Source: a virus
Strand: one strand, 5' to 3'
Length of the DNA: 45,500 nucleotides
IMG/VR virus record: IMGVR_UViG_3300021061_000026
Location: 1 to 45,500 of that record
Position numbers and translations under genes: made by a program. The notes under the pieces are model-generated. The model did no database searches. It had not been told where the DNA came from and worked only from the letters and a program-made list of their open reading frames with translations. Below, in pieces: positions 6,152 to 44,499 of this stretch. Numbering within the stretch: the first letter of the stretch is position 1; each line of letters starts with the position of its first letter.

Positions 6152-7402
6152 ATGTCACGCTGCCTACTACTCCTGCTGCTGATCGCCTCGCCGGCGCTGG
6201 GCCAGTACACGCGCCCGGCGGACGGCTGACTGCTTCCGCCTAGCGCGGAGTTGCCGCGCCCCGGAAACGGACGTCCCGAATACGCGGACTACATCCCGGC
6301 CGATCTGGTTGCCGCGTCGGTCAAGATCCGCATGCAAGGCGGCTACGGCGGCTCTGGGACGGTGATCCACGTCGATCCGCAGCAAGGCGCTGCGATGGTG
6401 CTGACGAACAAGCACGTTGTCGAGAAGGGTAACGGCATCGCCATCGTCACCTTCCCCTCGGGTCACGAGTTCGAGGGAGAGGTGATCGGCTACGACAAGA
6501 CGGGCGCGGATCTCGCGGCCATCGCCATTCCCGCTGACGCCTCGACGCCATTCGTCCCGGTCGCCAAGAGCTACCCACTCAAGGGCACTGGCATCTGCCA
6601 AGTGGGCTACGGCGGCGGGCAGATGCAGCGCCGCAGTGGGTTCATTGCTGGCTACCGCGAAAGGTCGCCGCACTACAACCTGATGCTGAGCTTCCAGGTC
6701 ATCAGCGGGGACAGCGGCTCGGGAGTGTTCATCCTTAAGACGAAGGAGCTGTGCGGCGTGGTCTGGGGCGGGCCGGACTACGACAACAGCGGCTATTTCG
6801 AGCCGCAAGCTGTCACCCTCGTAAACATCCACCGCTTCGTAGACGCTTGCCTGCCGAGGCTCTGCCCGCCGCGCCGAGGCTCGCCACGTCCGCCGTCAGG
6901 TGCTCGCCCGCCATCAGGCGTCCGCCCTCCGTCCGGCAACGGCCCGCCGATCATCGAGGTGCCTCCTGGGAGTCCTGGACAGCCAACGCAACCCGTTCAG
7001 CCGCCGGCCGTGACGCCTCCTGAACGCACGGGGCCGGTGATCGACCGGATCCGTGACGAGATCAAGAAGGAGTTGGAGGCCGAGAAGAAGGCGCTCATTG
7101 CGGTGCTGATCCAGATTCAGACCGACATTGCTGAACTGAAGTCGCGGAAGGTGGACAAGGGAGAAAAAGGTGACCGTGGACCGGCTGGACCACAAGGACC
7201 GGCAGGCCCTCCGGGACGAGACGGCAAAGACGGAGACACAACGGCACTGCAAGCCGAAGTAGCGGCGCTACGAAACGAGCTAAACGCCCTGCGTGCTCAG
7301 CGGCAGATATGCGAGCTGCTCGACGCCAAGGGCACAGTGATCCAGCGTTCGGAGTTCGGCCCGGGGGAACCCTTGCGCATCCAACTAATCCCGGTGAAGT
7401 GA
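6152..7402 (+). CDS. Trypsin-like serine protease with collagen-like tail; signal peptide separated by in-frame TGA
   Basis: One frame runs from ATG 6152 to TGA 7400-7402 and is interrupted only by TGA at 6227-6229. Codons 1-25 encode a classic signal peptide (MSRCLLLLLLIASPALGQ). After the TGA come a chymotrypsin-fold protease, a Pro-rich hinge, a helical coil, nine uninterrupted Gly-X-Y triplets (GEKGDRGPAG and on), a second coiled coil and a short C-terminal domain. Counted from TTG 6251, an alternative start, the triad is H55 (LTNKHVV), D87 (GADLAAI) and S155 (GDSGSG); the collagen part spans about 304-330. All catalytic residues are intact. The TGA is followed by C, a weak stop context in E. 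coli, so read-through is possible. A recent nonsense mutation, probably of a TGG, or a sequence error is equally possible. TTG 6251 has no well-spaced ribosome-binding site and would give a leaderless cytosolic protease. Confidence 0.75.
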
Positions 7403-7463
7403 TCGTTCCATGGCAGAACCGATCCAGATCCCAGTACCGGGCGAGAGCCCAAAGGAGAACGAA

Positions 7464-37848: not shown

Positions 37849-38403
37849 TCACCCCTTCCTCGTCAGTTCCTGCCGTAGCTGGTTCATGAGGTTCGTTGCC
37901 TGCTCCAGGGTCAGCTCCCGCGGCATCTCTTCCACCACTACTCTATGACCCAAGCGCCGCACCTTCGGCTCCTGGCGGGCAAGTTCCCACCGCGCACCCA
38001 CCTTGCCAATCAACCCCGCGTTGACCAGGAGCAAGCGTATCCAGTTTGGCGTGCGCTGCATCAGCTTGCCCAGAGTCTTGAGCGAGGGTGGATAGCCGTG
38101 CTCGCGCTGGTGCTTCTTCCACAGTTCCAGGGCCCGCGCAACCGTCTCTGGTCTGCGCGCCCGACCCTTGGGCCAGCCGTGATTGGCTGCGTAGTGGGCT
38201 TGCTTGTCTTTGGGTATGCCGCGCTCGTCCATGTTCAGGCAACCGCAGTTCGTTCGGTGTTTTAGCTGAGACTTGCGGATTCTTCGGGTGCCCCCGCATC
38301 TGTTGCAGAGAATCCAGACGCAGGTATTTCTCCATTTGTCGGGAGGAGCGTGGCCGAGGACAGTGATTCCCTGGCCCTCAGCTCTTGCTCTTTCTCCATC
38401 CAC
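37849..38403 (-). CDS. Zinc-ribbon DNA-binding-type protein
   Basis: The frame is open from 38526, but the first part lies on the recombinase gene. GTG 38403 is the start I prefer, giving 184 residues; the true start is uncertain. Near the N-terminus a zinc ribbon occurs (WILCNRCGGT ... NCGCLN), preceded by GQGITVLGHAPPD, a layout seen in phage regulatory and homing-type proteins. Helices with RPETVARALELWKKHQREHG and SLKTLGKLMQRTPNWIRLLL could be a second DNA-binding part. The C-terminal helix contains LEQATNLMNQLRQEL. Confidence 0.6.
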   Translation of the reverse strand: MDGERARAEGQGITVLGHAPPDKWRNTCVWILCNRCGGTRRIRKSQLKHRTNCGCLNMDERGIPKDKQAHYAANHGWPKGRARRPETVARALELWKKHQREHGYPPSLKTLGKLMQRTPNWIRLLLVNAGLIGKVGARWELARQEPKVRRLGHRVVVEEMPRELTLEQATNLMNQLRQELTRKG

Positions 38404-39089
38404 TGTTGCAGAGTTGCGTGGGGAGGGACTTTCGACGGCGCGCAACCCATTCTCCTGAGCTGCTCCCGCACCTGCTGAAACGTCAGCCCCTGATTCCTCA
38501 GCTCCAGGACGGTCGAGGCGATCCACCGTTGCTCCTCGTTCGGGATGAGCTTTTGTCTTACGCGGCCGTTGTCGTTGACCTTCTTGATCTTGAACCCATA
38601 TGGGGGTCTACCCAAAGTGTACCAGCCCTGCGCCTCGGCGTGCGCGCGCCCGGCCTCCATGCGCTCGCGGATCATGGTGCGGTCGAGCTCGATCGCGGCC
38701 CCGAACACCGTCATAGCGAAGCGCCCCACGGGGGTAGTCGTGTCGATGTTCAGGTCCAGAAGGTGGACGGAGACCCCGCGTTTATGCCATAGGTCGTAGG
38801 TCGTCAGGAGATCCACGACGTTGCGGAACCCTCGGTCCAAGCGTGGAAAGATCACGGCATCCCCGGATTTGGCGCACTCGTTGATCTGTTTGCCTGCGGG
38901 GCGTTCGATGAGGGGGACGCGCGAGGAGATGGCGGGATCTTCAAGGGTGCCGGCGTAGGTGTAGCCTTGGGGGGCGAGGCGATAGCGGAAATAGGCTTCG
39001 ATGGCCTCGGCGTGCTGCTCGAAGGTGTTCGTGTGCTGAACCTGGAATTGGGTGGAGAGGCGGCAGTATCCCCAGGCGGTGCGGGTCAT
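38262..39089 (-). CDS. Serine recombinase (resolvase/invertase family)
   Basis: The 275-residue protein begins MTRTAWGYCRLSTQFQ, where Ser12 matches the catalytic Ser of 'Y.R.S'. The core continues with DAVIFPRLDRGFRNVVDLL, whose arginines fit the active site, and FGAAIELDRTMIRERMEAGR, which precedes the long E-helix. A short recombinase-type part (GRPPYGFKIKK) and a helical DNA-binding end follow. At 275 residues it is longer than small resolvases and much shorter than large serine integrases. It may resolve genome multimers, invert DNA or integrate the phage. No att-like inverted repeats were identified next to it. Confidence 0.9.
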   Translation of the reverse strand: MTRTAWGYCRLSTQFQVQHTNTFEQHAEAIEAYFRYRLAPQGYTYAGTLEDPAISSRVPLIERPAGKQINECAKSGDAVIFPRLDRGFRNVVDLLTTYDLWHKRGVSVHLLDLNIDTTTPVGRFAMTVFGAAIELDRTMIRERMEAGRAHAEAQGWYTLGRPPYGFKIKKVNDNGRVRQKLIPNEEQRWIASTVLELRNQGLTFQQVREQLRRMGCAPSKVPPHATLQQWMEKEQELRARESLSSATLLPTNGEIPASGFSATDAGAPEESASLS

Positions 39090-39570: not shown

Positions 39571-39620
39571 GGATGCCTCCAAAAAATCTACCCCGCCCGG
39601 TCTCGGCTCCGCGTGAGCGG

Positions 39621-39671
39621 GCGGCGGTGATTAGTCGCCGCAGAGGACACGGGCGGGGCAGAGGGAATGAC
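39621..39671 (+). promoter_or_regulatory. Inverted copy (element d) of the TGATTA hairpin leader
   Basis: On the plus strand GCGGCGG (39621-39627) and TCGCCGC (39635-39641) form a 7-pair stem with one G-T pair around the 7-base loop TGATTAG. AGAGGGAATGAC follows at 39660-39671. It is in the opposite orientation to the three similar elements a-c and lies at the 3' end of a minus-strand gene. It does not precede an obvious plus-strand gene. It may be an inverted duplicate or a leader that has lost its gene. Confidence 0.5.
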
Positions 39672-40136
39672 TTACTCTTCGGTTTCCTCAGCGAGGCCAA
39701 GCGCCTCTTTGGTCTCGTCGTTATCGGGTTCGTTCACGTCGATGCCCTCGGCGTCGAGCTGCTCCATCACGTCAGCTTCAAGAGCGCAGTAGGCCAGACC
39801 AGACCAGTTGATAGCGCCGTCATTCGCAATGCCCTCTTTCCCGAATTGGTCTACGTAGGCATCTTGGTTCTCAGTGAAGAGGAGCGTTTTCTGCGCCTGC
39901 CAGGTGTAGATCACGCGCTCGTTGCCGTCGATGGTCTCGTTGATGTGCTCGATGAGCCATTCGCGGAGCGGTTCGCCGGAGTTGCCGTCTTTGATTTGGT
40001 CGCGCAGCTCGTCCATGATGCTATGGGCGAGGCCGCGCACGTCGGCCCAATATTCGGCGCGGAGCACATGTTCCGCGTCCTTGACGATCTTCTCGGCCTC
40101 TTCGCGGGTCAGTTCGGAGAAAGGCTTGGTCAACAT
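39672..40136 (-). CDS. Phage hypothetical protein
   Basis: The 154-residue acidic protein starts at ATG 40136 behind hairpin leader element a. It is helical with EAEKIVKDAEHVLRAEYWAD, then DELRDQIKDG, LREWLIEHINETIDG, and an acidic tail (DNDETKEALGLAEETEE). The type is widespread in phages and mobile elements, as I recall, with no known role. Its gene is flanked by inverted copies of the hairpin element at both ends. Confidence 0.75.
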   Translation of the reverse strand: MLTKPFSELTREEAEKIVKDAEHVLRAEYWADVRGLAHSIMDELRDQIKDGNSGEPLREWLIEHINETIDGNERVIYTWQAQKTLLFTENQDAYVDQFGKEGIANDGAINWSGLAYCALEADVMEQLDAEGIDVNEPDNDETKEALGLAEETEE

Positions 40137-40182
40137 GGTTCATTCCCTCTTTTAGGAGTGCGGGGAGGTAATCAACCGCCCC
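40137..40182 (-). promoter_or_regulatory. TGATTA hairpin leader, element a
   Basis: Reading on the minus strand, GGGGCGG (40182-40176) and CCTCCCC (40168-40162) form a stem with one internal C-T mismatch around the loop TTGATTA. About 15 bases later comes AGAGGGAATGAACC, then the ATG at 40136. GAGGGA is the probable ribosome-binding site. Elements b and c have the same layout with different stem bases. Confidence 0.65.
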
Positions 40183-40185
40183 AGT

Positions 40186-40208
40186 GCTCGCCTACGATGC
40201 CGGCGAGC
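40186..40208 (-). terminator. GC-rich hairpin upstream of element a
   Basis: GCTCGCC at 40186-40192 and GGCGAGC at 40202-40208 form a perfect 7-base stem with a 9-base loop. It lies between the end of the next minus-strand gene (40288) and element a. No T-run follows on the minus strand. It may work together with element a as a double hairpin, for example in processing or attenuation. Confidence 0.45.
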
Positions 40209-40287
40209 GAAGGCAACACACAAGAGTAGACGCGCCCACCGTGGGCACGTCAAGCGGTGCGGCTGTGCAGGTGCGCAGCCCATAGAT

Positions 40288-40536
40288 TTAGCGTGCCAGC
40301 TCAGCGTATGAGCGCCATCCGTCAACCGGCTCGCCTCGGAACCATCTCCCCTCTTTCTCCCAGAGGCGGGCATGGAACCCGGTTAGCTTCGCTGCCTCGG
40401 CCTCGCGCTTCGTGGCGAACGTGTCTAGCGTGCCGCCCCTGGACGATTTGAGCGCCCAGCGGCGGCCGTGCTTTTCGACGGTCCACGATGACGGCGGATC
40501 GGCGTCGTGTTCTTCTGGGGTAAGGTGCAGGGCCAT
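40288..40536 (-). CDS. Small hypothetical protein
   Basis: From ATG 40536 the protein has 82 residues; GGAGGAA upstream supports this start over TTG 40551. It contains SWTVEKHGRRWALKSSRGGT and a helical DTFATKREAEAAKLTGFHAR, followed by a Trp-rich end. The pattern 'strand-strand-helix' suggests a small compact fold like those of phage proteins that read as 'W.V....G.W......G....T...R.EA'. Its last 14 bases are identical to those of the gene at 40558-40650. Confidence 0.65.
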   Translation of the reverse strand: MALHLTPEEHDADPPSSWTVEKHGRRWALKSSRGGTLDTFATKREAEAAKLTGFHARLWEKEGRWFRGEPVDGWRSYAELAR

Positions 40537-40557
40537 TCGCGTTTCCTCCAAAGGGGT

Positions 40558-40650
40558 TTAGCGTGCCAGCGCTTCCGCAATGGCTAGTCCGCAGACAAGG
40601 GCGACCAGCGCCAGGGCGATAGCGCAGAGGCGGGGATAGTGGTTAGGCAT
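40558..40650 (-). CDS. 30-residue single-helix membrane peptide
   Basis: ATG 40650 opens 30 codons to TAA at 40558-40560: MPNHYPRLCAIALALVALVC followed by GLAIAEALAR. Residues 8-27 form one hydrophobic helix with a short positive start. It fits exactly between two other genes of the block, and its 3' end repeats the 3' end of the next gene downstream. No clear ribosome-binding site was seen. The composition argues for a real tiny membrane protein. Confidence 0.5.
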   Translation of the reverse strand: MPNHYPRLCAIALALVALVCGLAIAEALAR

Positions 40651-40653
40651 TGG

Positions 40654-40989
40654 CTAGGCTCCGGTGCCAGTGGCCTTTGCAATAGCCTTGCGCAGCACGT
40701 CTAAACGAAGCGTGGATACACGCCACGCCGCGCTTGCGCCAAGCTCCTCGAAAGCCTGCTTGCATGCCTCCAGCAAATCAGGCGCGGCCGCTATTAATCG
40801 TGCATCAGCCTCGGCAATGGCGTGGTCATTCGCTTCGCAGACCTCGGCTATCGTTTCTATGGCAACATCGACGCCCCGTTCCTCGGCGGCTTCCTTGCCA
40901 AGGTCCCGATTGATGCCGAACGCTCGCAAGCCGTTTAGCTTGTCGTCGGCGCTGTAGGTCCACGGTCCCGGTGTGTGTTTCGCTTGCAT
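40654..40989 (-). CDS. HTPGPW-type phage protein
   Basis: The 111-residue protein starts at ATG 40989 behind GGAGGGATAAGC. It begins MQAKHTPGPWTYS and contains AIAEADARLIAAAPDLLEAC, the two hallmarks of a widespread phage accessory family whose function is unknown to me. The C-terminal helices (VSTLRLDVLRKAIAKATG) are basic. It has a relative in the late-region gene at 30490-30858. Confidence 0.8.
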   Translation of the reverse strand: MQAKHTPGPWTYSADDKLNGLRAFGINRDLGKEAAEERGVDVAIETIAEVCEANDHAIAEADARLIAAAPDLLEACKQAFEELGASAAWRVSTLRLDVLRKAIAKATGTGA

Positions 40990-41073
40990 CGCTTATCCCT
41001 CCAGGGTTTGCCACCTGGCGCGCTCCGAAGTGAAGCGCGGCCCATTACGCGCCTTGCGGCGCGGGCTCTGAGT

Positions 41074-41301
41074 TTAGAACCTGGCGGCGCTCTTTTCCTT
41101 CGCCCATGTCAGCAGCGATTCCAGCTCTTTCAATACCTTGCGAGCGCCGATCGTCTGTTCATAGATGATCGGTGTATCTGGCTGGTCTAGTTCCCGGTCC
41201 ATGTTCGCCACATGGCGGCGCATGCGCGTGGTTTCTTCGGATAGTGCGTCGCGGATTGCGATAACCTCAGATTCGGTGAACGTCGCGGTAATGGTTCTCA
41301 T
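41074..41301 (-). CDS. Small helical protein
   Basis: The 75-residue protein starts at ATG 41301 behind hairpin leader element b. After a beta-like start (MRTITATFTESEVIAIRDAL) it is a helical hairpin with RMRRHVANMDRELDQPDTP and a second helix (ARKVLKELESLLTWAKE). This could form a small bundle. No family is recognised. It begins with the same leader layout as the genes at 39672 and 41400. Confidence 0.7.
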   Translation of the reverse strand: MRTITATFTESEVIAIRDALSEETTRMRRHVANMDRELDQPDTPIIYEQTIGARKVLKELESLLTWAKEKSAARF

Positions 41302-41341
41302 TGTTCATTCCCTCCGAATATGGCCGGGTAATCAATCCGGC
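41302..41341 (-). promoter_or_regulatory. TGATTA hairpin leader, element b
   Basis: On the minus strand GCCGG (41341-41337) pairs with CCGGC (41327-41323). An additional T-G pair leaves the 7-base loop TTGATTA. CATATTCGGAGGGAATGAAC then leads to the ATG at 41301. The stem sequence differs from elements a and c, but the loop and the GAGGGAATGA segment are the same. Confidence 0.65.
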
Positions 41342-41365
41342 ATACGGTTAAAGGCACTCACCATA

Positions 41366-41385
41366 GCGCCGGAGCATGCCGGCGC
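41366..41385 (-). terminator. GC-rich hairpin upstream of element b
   Basis: GCGCCGG (41366-41372) and CCGGCGC (41379-41385) form a perfect 7-base stem with a 6-base loop. It sits 15 bases after the end of the gene at 41400-41924 and before element b, as does the hairpin at 40186-40208 relative to element a. No T-run follows; a role as terminator or processing site is possible. Confidence 0.45.
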
Positions 41386-41399
41386 AGTAGTGAAAGCCC

Positions 41400-41924
41400 C
41401 TAAGCGGATTGCGCGTGGCGAGACGTGCGGAAATGCTCGGGCGTGATTGTCGGCAGCGCGTCCCATGCCACTACGTCTTGTTCGATGCCGACCGCATAGG
41501 CGTCTATAGCGTTCGTCGTCATGTCTCTGAGGAAGAACGCGATCGGATAGCCTGCGCCGTTCAGGACAACGCCGATAAACTCGAAACCGTAAAACTCCGC
41601 CTCCGCCTTGCCATGCTCTCCCTCAAACGTGACAGATGGATAGGCGCGGCTGATGCCGTGGCGCAGCGCAGCTCCTACCTTGATGGGGAGATGCGGTTCG
41701 CTTGGCGCGTGAAACATCCAGCCATTTGGCATGGTCTCTTTAGTCAGGACGAAAGAGAGGATGCGGAACCCGTTGGCGCGGGCACGCATCATGGCGACGT
41801 TGGATAGGTCGGAGCGGCGCTTTTGCTCGGCGCGGTTTGCCTTCTCCGCCTTGCGTAGCGCTTTCTTGGCGGCCTTTTCGGTCTCGCCCTCAAACCGGCC
41901 TAGCTCTGTCTCGATCGCAAACAT
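41400..41924 (-). CDS. Phage hypothetical protein
   Basis: From ATG 41924 the protein has 174 residues; an ATG six bases earlier is part of the leader motif and too close to the ribosome-binding site. A strongly charged coiled helix (EGETEKAAKKALRKAEKANR) is followed by a mixed alpha/beta part (ARANGFRILSFVLTKETMPN, AEFYGFEFIGVVLNGAGYPI). The sequence type occurs in phage accessory regions, as I recall, with no known function. It is preceded by element c and promoter P1. Confidence 0.7.
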   Translation of the reverse strand: MFAIETELGRFEGETEKAAKKALRKAEKANRAEQKRRSDLSNVAMMRARANGFRILSFVLTKETMPNGWMFHAPSEPHLPIKVGAALRHGISRAYPSVTFEGEHGKAEAEFYGFEFIGVVLNGAGYPIAFFLRDMTTNAIDAYAVGIEQDVVAWDALPTITPEHFRTSRHAQSA

Positions 41925-41963
41925 GGTCATTCCCTCTGTGCGGGACGAGTAATCAGCTCGTCC
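41925..41963 (-). promoter_or_regulatory. TGATTA hairpin leader, element c
   Basis: On the minus strand GGACGAG (41963-41957) pairs perfectly with CTCGTCC (41949-41943) around the loop CTGATTA. CGCACAGAGGGAATGACC then leads to the ATG at 41924. Together with a and b it shows a stem that changes while pairing is kept. It lies about 20 bases after the predicted start point of promoter P1. Confidence 0.65.
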
Positions 41964-41989
41964 GCGGGTTGAATTGATCTACGCTCTAA

Positions 41990-42017
41990 CTATTACGTCG
42001 GCGAAAGAGATAGTCAA
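41990..42017 (-). promoter_or_regulatory. Promoter P1
   Basis: On the minus strand TTGACT (42017-42012) and TAATAG (41995-41990) are spaced by 16 bases. The spacer TCTCTTTCGCCGACG-like core is nearly the same as in P2, 290 bases upstream. Transcription would start near 41983 and run through element c into the gene at 41400-41924 and probably on to the genes behind it. Confidence 0.5.
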
Positions 42018-42080: not shown

Positions 42081-42272
42081 TTAGTTTTGTGGGCGCGGTC
42101 TGCCGGGAGCCTGACGTTTGAAGCGCATCACGTCAGAACGGAGAAGGGCATAGGAGCGTTCGAGCTGCTTAGCGGGAAGGCGGCCAGCTCGAATGAATTG
42201 CCTGACGCGCGTAGGCGTGACACCGATAATCCGGGCCGCCTCAGACACCGATAGGACATCATCAAGGGACAT
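42081..42272 (-). CDS. Small helix-turn-helix (MerR/excisionase-like) protein
   Basis: From ATG 42272 the protein has 63 residues; the longer open frame upstream crosses the promoter and is not credible. It contains VSEAARIIGVTPTRVRQFIR at about 9-28 and the wing-like GRLPAKQLERSY, the winged-helix layout of excisionase and MerR-type DNA-binding proteins. The basic tail ends RPRPQN. No ribosome-binding site is present, and P2 would start the RNA about at the ATG, so a leaderless mRNA is likely. It may control P1 and P2, whose spacers share a site. Confidence 0.75.
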   Translation of the reverse strand: MSLDDVLSVSEAARIIGVTPTRVRQFIRAGRLPAKQLERSYALLRSDVMRFKRQAPGRPRPQN

Positions 42273-42280
42273 CACGCAAG

Positions 42281-42309
42281 ATTCTATCGCCGACGAAAGA
42301 GAAAGCGAA
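42281..42309 (-). promoter_or_regulatory. Promoter P2
   Basis: On the minus strand TTCGCT (42309-42304) and TAGAAT (42286-42281) are spaced by 17 bases, with the spacer TTCTCTTTCGTCGGCGA. TAGAAT is a good -10 box. The predicted start is within two or three bases of the ATG at 42272. The 5' half and spacer match P1 at most positions, which indicates a shared regulator or a duplicated promoter. Confidence 0.5.
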
Positions 42310-42953
42310 TGAAAATGAAAGAAGCATTTTCGCTGAGAGGGAACGGCAGCGACGCGCTGAACGGCGCCAGCACGCACACAAGACCGCAATAGCCGGCGCA
42401 ACGGACGATGTAGCGCCGCTCTTTCCCGCCTCTTTACGCGCCGATTGCCCAGGCGATGCATAACAGAGGAGCCAGACACACCAGAGCAGATGGACCAGAG
42501 ACACAAGAAGCGCCAGAGCCTACCATCTGGCAGCTCTGGTAGCTCTGACAGGTCTGGTAGCTCTGGTAGGGACGAGCTCTTTCACCCATGCTTACCCGCT
42601 CTTTCGGCCATGCTTCAGACCAGAGGCGGAACAATGCCGAACCATAGCAGACACAAGGGCTTGCGGCCATTCGTCCCAGGCTATGCGTTAACCCTTCCGC
42701 TAACAGGACAAAGGCCCCCTCAGCCTGTCATTAGCATATGCTAGCTTCACATACCGCACGATACATGGCCACGCATAGCTAGTCGGGGTATATGCTTGCG
42801 TCATACTGGCCATGGGCTGTGCATGGGCCAGAGACCCTACCCGGTTGGCCCCCAAACGTAGCCAGGACAGTAGTCATATGCCCCATCTGGAGTTTTTGAC
42901 CCCCCTTTAGTTTTGGGGAGGCTCTAGGATCACGTCTGGCGCGTTTTGGTGGG
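42310..42953. other. Gene-free control region, candidate origin
   Basis: About 640 bases without a convincing gene. The region contains five tandem 9-base repeats (42526-42570), several CCAGAG words before them, an 18-base imperfect repeat GCTCTTTC..CCATGCTT at 42576-42593 and 42598-42615, and a perfect 12-base palindrome TAGCATATGCTA at 42732-42743. A C-run/G-run pair lies near 42897-42919. An open frame on the minus strand over the repeats (42434-42670) is low-complexity and has no start site. The mix fits an origin, partition or promoter region. Confidence 0.5.
42526..42570 (+). repeat. Five tandem 9-base repeats (TCTGGTAGC type)
   Basis: Units start at 42526, 42535, 42544, 42553 and 42562: TCTGGCAGC, TCTGGTAGC, TCTGACAGG, TCTGGTAGC, TCTGGTAGG. 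The second and fourth are identical, the others differ by one to three bases. Reverse-complement words (CCAGAG) occur at 42479, 42495 and 42514, just before. Directly repeated short units in a gene-free region resemble iterons. Confidence 0.7.
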
Positions 42954-44205: not shown

Positions 44206-44499
44206 TTAGTAATACTCGCATTCCAGGCCGGTTGCTTGCTCAACGAGTGCGCGGATCTTGTGCAGGTCCTCTTTCGCCGGCGCGTGCTCGACGCTCTCGA
44301 CCCACCGCGTCAGCCGGCCGATCTTCGAGATGGTCTCGATCTTCTCCAGCACCGCGGCACCAACGAGGCGGTCGATGAACGCCACGATGGGATCGACGAC
44401 CTGATCGGATGGGCCCATGCCTACCACGATCCCGGCCGGCGTGTGCGTGTATTCGATGGGCAGAAGCCGTTTCAGTTCAGCGATTTGCGTGTCGGTCAT
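44206..44499 (-). CDS. Hypothetical protein
   Basis: The 97-residue protein starts at ATG 44499. It begins MTDTQIAELKRLLPIEYTHT and contains a Gly-rich turn (AGIVVGMGPSDQ) and helices with IDRLVGAAVLEKIETISKIG. No motif is recognised. It lies in the same operon as the phosphoesterase, with a 12-base gap to the broken small gene downstream. Confidence 0.65.
   Translation of the reverse strand: MTDTQIAELKRLLPIEYTHTPAGIVVGMGPSDQVVDPIVAFIDRLVGAAVLEKIETISKIGRLTRWVESVEHAPAKEDLHKIRALVEQATGLECEYY

Follow-up and report, generated by a model that had tools for sequence, protein, structure and literature searches.

The window, a 45.5 kb stretch of DNA, is the entire IMG/VR virus record IMGVR_UViG_3300021061_000026. 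The terminase large subunit encoded in it is not closely related to that of any sequenced phage, its best matches there showing about 24% identity, and it shows 33-53% identity to metagenomic contigs and MAGs. Three minus-strand genes, c, b and a (Table 1), belong to a leftward operon in which c is the first gene and a is the last one to carry the leader described below. Pseudaeromonas phage KLEP7 encodes a weak homologue of the gene a product (30%, E=6e-5). A candidate promoter, recognized by its match to the consensus, is present ~25 nt upstream of the hairpin that precedes gene c, which would put this hairpin close to the mRNA 5' end, and the region past gene a, from which we propose that an RNA (d-) arises, at the 3' end. 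Leaders c, b and a together with d- would thus be carried on one transcript. A serine recombinase (resolvase/invertase) gene is the neighbor of gene a.

Other repeated sequences are also present in this part of the window. CTCTTTCGCCGACG-like motifs at 41990-42013, 42283-42305 and 44269-44282 surround the candidate operon promoter and an excisionase-like gene (42081-42272), and could be operators. Upstream of the operon, at 42526-42569, a 9-base unit, TCTGGTAGC, occurs in short direct repeats.

The shared leader of genes a, b and c

Each of the three genes is preceded by a leader that lies over its RBS and contains the same succession of parts: a hairpin with the loop YTGATTA, then GAGGGAATGA, then the ATG. 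An earlier note on this DNA had drawn attention to these elements, and the observation is real, with small corrections. Elements a, b and c are found where that note placed them, before three different genes, and their strand, which it left unstated, is minus. The note's statement that the stems differ in sequence but keep pairing holds fully for b and c; in stem a, GGGGCGG/CCTCCCC, a C-U mismatch leaves six of the seven pairs. The arms differ across all of the elements and are without common sequence; thus, the constant loop and the box are the conserved parts. A constant loop and SD box with variable, paired stems are expected if the stems merely display a loop that matches another molecule.

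Table 1. Position of the genes, leader parts and proposed RNA features (window coordinates unless an accession is given)
Feature	Position	Strand	Detail or basis
Serine recombinase (resolvase/invertase) gene	38262-39089		
Proposed antisense RNA d- (5' end approximate)	39577-39680	-	predicted fold -53.9 kcal/mol, z = -3.96, 0/200 shuffles
Intrinsic terminator of d-	39581-39662	-	UCUGCCCCGCCCG / CGGGCGGGGUAGA + U6; encloses the kissing hairpin
Hairpin of d-	39621-39641	-	GCGGCG (ACUAAUCAC) CGCCGC
Anti-SD seed of d-	39661-39671	-	GUCAUUCCCUC, complementary to GAGGGAAUGA(C) of a, b and c
Gene a, 154 aa	39672-40136	-	codon score 0.46 bits/codon
SD box a	40140-40149	-	GAGGGAATGA; ACC, then the ATG of gene a
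Leader hairpin a	40162-40182	-	GGGGCGG (TTGATTA) CCTCCCC, one C-U mismatch
Gene b, 75 aa	41074-41301	-	ORF and codon score
SD box b	41305-41314	-	GAGGGAATGA
Leader hairpin b	41323-41341	-	GCCGG (ATTGATTAC) CCGGC
Gene c, 174 aa	41400-41924	-	first gene of the leftward operon; ORF and codon score
SD box c	41927-41936	-	GAGGGAATGA
Leader hairpin c	41943-41963	-	GGACGAG (CTGATTA) CTCGTCC
Candidate operon promoter	41989-42017	-	TTGACT-17-AATAGT; consensus match only
CrimD anti-SAS hairpin region	NC_014459 58779-58929 (L159:28780-28930)		

The box GAGGGAATGA occurs exactly four times in the 45.5 kb, each time with TGATTA shortly upstream. TGATTA itself is found at nine sites in the window, and only the four sites beside the box are borne on hairpins, with stem scores of 7, 6.5, 5.5 and 5 (chance of such scores at random positions, ~0.004, 0.017, 0.03 and 0.05, respectively); the remaining five sites score 3 or less. 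Taken singly, the hairpins of a (z = -1.3) and b (z = -0.6) are not unusual in their stability, while that of c is unusually stable (z = -2.6). The earlier note could name no described motif for the leader, and in agreement with this, a scan of the window with Rfam at the gathering score returned no family. The leader is a cis-acting RNA element whose loop is constant and whose stems vary in sequence while remaining paired.

The inverted copy at the end of the operon

The set of three copies that the earlier note described overlooks a fourth, d (39621-39671), which is inverted relative to a, b and c. On the plus strand, no start codon is present at leader distance behind the box of d. An ORF on this strand that starts from an ATG inside the box scores -0.26 bits/codon and looks non-coding, and a 246-aa plus-strand ORF over gene a scores 0.007 bits/codon, versus the 0.46 of gene a on the minus strand. 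Copy d is not a leader for any plus-strand gene.

When read on the minus strand, copy d is 3' UTR sequence lying immediately past the gene a stop codon. This codon is followed, in order, by GUCAUUCCCUC, the first (5') arm of a 13-bp stem, the hairpin whose loop is ACUAAUCAC, the second (3') arm of the stem, and U6. Comparison of all 13 T-runs of at least five in the window reveals that d- contains the only strong intrinsic terminator among them, which lies on the operon strand just past the gene a stop; its stem has 13 bp, of which 10 are GC, versus 8 bp and 4 GC for the next best. The same stretch carries the complements of both conserved parts of the leader in the correct antiparallel order. 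Its anti-SD seed can be matched to the three SD boxes over 10-13 nt, and its hairpin loop contains UAAUCA, the complement of the UGAUUA in the loops of a, b and c. In the predicted fold of d-, the seed is mostly single-stranded and the loop is unpaired. Rfam gives no relevant weak match at d either. Since complementarity between a direct and an inverted copy arises automatically, the argument for an antisense RNA rests on the position of d, on its terminator, and on the lack of a plus-strand gene behind it.

Predicted pairing and its possible meaning

Outside of its own locus, and with both strands of the window considered, the top three duplex sites for the seed are leaders c (-23.8 kcal/mol), b (-19.8 kcal/mol) and a (-18.9 kcal/mol), with the fourth-best site, at -18.7 kcal/mol, only 0.2 weaker than the third. 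UGAUUA and UAAUCA are both located within predicted hairpin loops, the kissing core being only 6 nt. Loops a, b and c begin with UUGA, UUGA and CUGA, all of which fit YUNR, the U-turn rule for the loops of kissing antisense systems (PMC4485353); GUGA, in the plus-strand reading of d, does not fit. Cofolding of the whole d- with a, b and c gives -11.4, -8.8 and -8.2, while the top-scoring ones among 92 control starts range from -10.5 to -8.5; it thus does not single out the three leaders over many other starts, because GC-rich parts of d- bind many of them. In the joint structures predicted for the three leaders, the SD box is paired with the seed, and the kissing hairpins stay intact with their loops free.

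A screen of 5.1 Mb of fetched DNA (259 loci, both strands) for SD boxes repeated before starts and accompanied by a same-strand antisense copy yielded 1482 repeated boxes, 328 of them with such a copy. The d- of the window ranks first, with a terminator score of 23, and the next terminator score is 11; since the scoring was devised after the d- case had been seen, it is this gap, rather than a P value, that constitutes the evidence.

These features suggest that d- may be a 3'-UTR antisense RNA by which the operon represses three of its genes through two contacts, anti-SD pairing and loop-loop kissing. For this reading, which rests on one genome, we estimate a probability of roughly 0.6. According to this model, the hairpin with its YUGAUUA loop and the extended SD box GAGGGAAUGA would serve as an address tag on three of the operon genes. 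As the operon is transcribed, d- would build up, either as a processed 3' fragment or by way of its own promoter; alternatively, the pairing might take place inside the same mRNA molecule. The first contact between d- and a tagged leader would be the kissing of the loops over 6 bp, with the target loops presented as YUNR U-turns. Zipping of 10-13 bp across the SD box would then block ribosome binding, so that the three tagged genes would come under negative feedback. Operon genes lacking the tag would be spared, or touched only via polarity. For the phage, such an arrangement may provide an early burst of expression followed by shut-off.

The earlier note had left it at the loop binding a protein or an RNA that controls the translation of all three genes. 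Copy d makes an RNA the better choice of partner: it lies on a strong terminator in the operon's own 3' UTR and specifies sequences complementary to the loop as well as to the SD box. Under the protein half of the proposal, the leader would be an operator of the MS2 coat or T4 RegA type, recognized by an RNA-binding protein of the phage or its host, and the inverted copy would be a stray, or a decoy on the opposite strand. Hairpins bound by proteins also typically combine a constant loop with a stem that varies but stays paired, and the plus-strand hairpin of d, at 7 bp with a G-U pair included, is slightly longer than the minus-strand one. However, an operator of this kind leaves unexplained the conservation of the SD box as a 10-mer that extends past the pairing region, the inverted orientation of the fourth copy within the operon 3' UTR, and the location of d on the best terminator of the window; moreover, neither a plus-strand gene nor a start lies behind d. 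No candidate for a cognate RNA-binding protein was present among the proteins scanned. We consider a protein operator unlikely.

It is less probable still that the leader is merely an efficient RBS that has spread by local duplication, with the hairpin and the inverted copy having no regulatory role. Such duplication would be easy, since the copies all lie within 2.3 kb, and GAGG at 8-9 nt from the ATG is a good SD sequence. However, duplicated leaders would have a common stem sequence, but it is the stems that differ here and the loop and box that are identical. The four hairpins are also jointly improbable, the remaining genes of the operon have other leaders, and the inverted copy lies away from any start. 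An element acting at the level of the DNA appears very improbable. Copies d and a form inverted repeats flanking gene a, and a resolvase/invertase gene adjoins, an arrangement that might suggest recombinase sites or operators; both of these, however, need conserved arms, whereas here the arms vary and the loop is constant. Serine-recombinase sites were rejected for this reason.

Further occurrences in phages, by which the earlier note had proposed to support a new cis-regulatory RNA, were not obtained. An exact-pattern scan of IMG/VR gave 59 matches, nearly all of them without a stem and essentially attributable to chance, as also appears to be the case for the single hairpins found in two of the matched loci (L015 and L026). 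No copy of the leader/antisense system was present in 48 contigs with a related terminase, and the search for relatives of proteins a and c found none. Two of the terminase relatives, L067 (3405-3430, 8122, 12094 and 13422) and L068 (4840, 7342-7411 and 11274), contain repeated near-perfect palindromes, which were considered as analogous repeats and set aside. Their arms are conserved (ATGTGGTGCCAA..TTGGCACCACAT and GGCATGAACGCCA..TGGCGTTCATGCC), and they resemble repressor operators or stoperators; the elements of the window look quite different from these operator-like palindromes.

Known antisense RNAs and the start-associated sequences of Cluster K phages

The arrangement in the window combines known kinds of regulator, a 3'-UTR autoregulatory sRNA and a bipartite, kissing antisense RNA. 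OppZ and CarZ of Vibrio cholerae are sRNAs that derive from 3' UTRs and repress their own operons (PMC7398697). Like these, d- lies directly past the last gene, ends in the Rho-independent terminator of the operon, and is predicted to inhibit translation by pairing with translation starts on what would be its own transcript, to which it is complementary. Unlike these, it is found in a phage rather than a chromosome, has three targets with a common tag and a second, loop-loop contact, and shows no homology to them. In pMV158, the single-stranded 5' tail of RNAII pairs with the target mRNA to repress translation, assisted by kissing of hairpin loops (PMC4485353). Recognition by d- would likewise be bipartite, with a predicted single-stranded seed and kissing loops; in both predicted RNAs the loops are complementary, and YUNR is present in those of the targets. 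However, the target of RNAII is the repB mRNA encoded by its own plasmid, whereas d- matches three different genes. The c4 antisense RNA of P1/P7 blocks an RBS by base pairing, its structure displaying the complementary stretches (PMC12197685), and d- would similarly be a phage antisense RNA directed against the RBS. Unlike d-, c4 controls the synthesis of the antirepressor (ant), and d- matches no Rfam family at the gathering threshold.

Start-associated sequences (SAS) of Cluster K mycobacteriophages offer a further parallel. These 13-bp sequences precede non-structural genes, some with an inverted repeat upstream, and in four K1 phages one copy is present in the opposite orientation, away from gene starts; the authors argue against RNA pairing (PMC3203893). 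Papers of 2024-2025 still call the function of SAS unknown. As in the SAS and ESAS, the window contains a box longer than an SD sequence, located a few nt before the ATG of several genes, with a hairpin or inverted repeat upstream. The sequences themselves differ, GGGATAGGAGCCC (13 bp) in the SAS versus GAGGGAATGA in the window, and the ESAS have conserved 17-bp inverted-repeat arms, whereas in the window elements only the loop is conserved.

In CrimD, 13 SAS copies (with at most one mismatch) are found before genes, along with one inverted copy in a 420-bp gene-free interval that separates genes 93 and 94. On the strand of the genes, a long hairpin is present here whose apical loop consists of exactly the anti-SAS sequence, CCUCCUAUCC. 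Efra2, LastHope, Niklas and Enkosi retain this hairpin and its loop, with compensatory changes in the stem, a covariation seen among five sequences only, in which two pairs have changed on both sides. The region around the hairpin matches 177 Mycobacterium phage records. RNA-seq of Adephagia indicates that late transcription begins between genes 92 and 93 (PMC11373665), an interval that is probably equivalent to the CrimD hairpin gap. It is possible that the K1 anti-SAS hairpin is an antisense regulator of the SAS genes; located in a stretch devoid of genes toward the right end of the genome, it could shut these genes off at the onset of late transcription.

Among the 17 Cluster K records searched, an inverted copy in a hairpin loop is confined to five K1-type phages. 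In 11 of the 17, 12-19 forward SAS copies are present and no inverted copy; K8 Boilgate has a single forward copy. Most K subclusters thus differ from the window phage in lacking an inverted copy. A Microbacterium EF-type contig contains nine forward copies and no reverse copy. The many SAS phages that lack an inverted copy indicate that such boxes need no antisense RNA, and the generalization to all SAS phages fails on the 11 K records and the Microbacterium contig. The ten other aligned records have a different sequence at the position of the K1 hairpin. Pyrimidine-rich sequences, CTTCCCTTCCC and CTCCCTTCCC, which are not complementary to SAS, occur at this position in Amgine (L164), Krueger (L167) and Shandong1 (L168). 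The wider proposal, that an operon terminator can serve as a multi-target antisense RNA by means of a two-part tag and that start-site tagging together with an antisense hairpin arose independently in the K1 phages, is one that we advance tentatively, considering it somewhat more likely to be wrong than right.

If the antisense reading of d- is correct, a single RNA made from the end of an operon would repress several of the genes encoded there, recognizing them by a common tag and requiring no protein. This would be a compact feedback device, for which we found no phage description in the literature. The case of the window also offers a testable idea about the SAS of mycobacteriophages, since the loop of the K1 hairpin is the exact complement of the box core.
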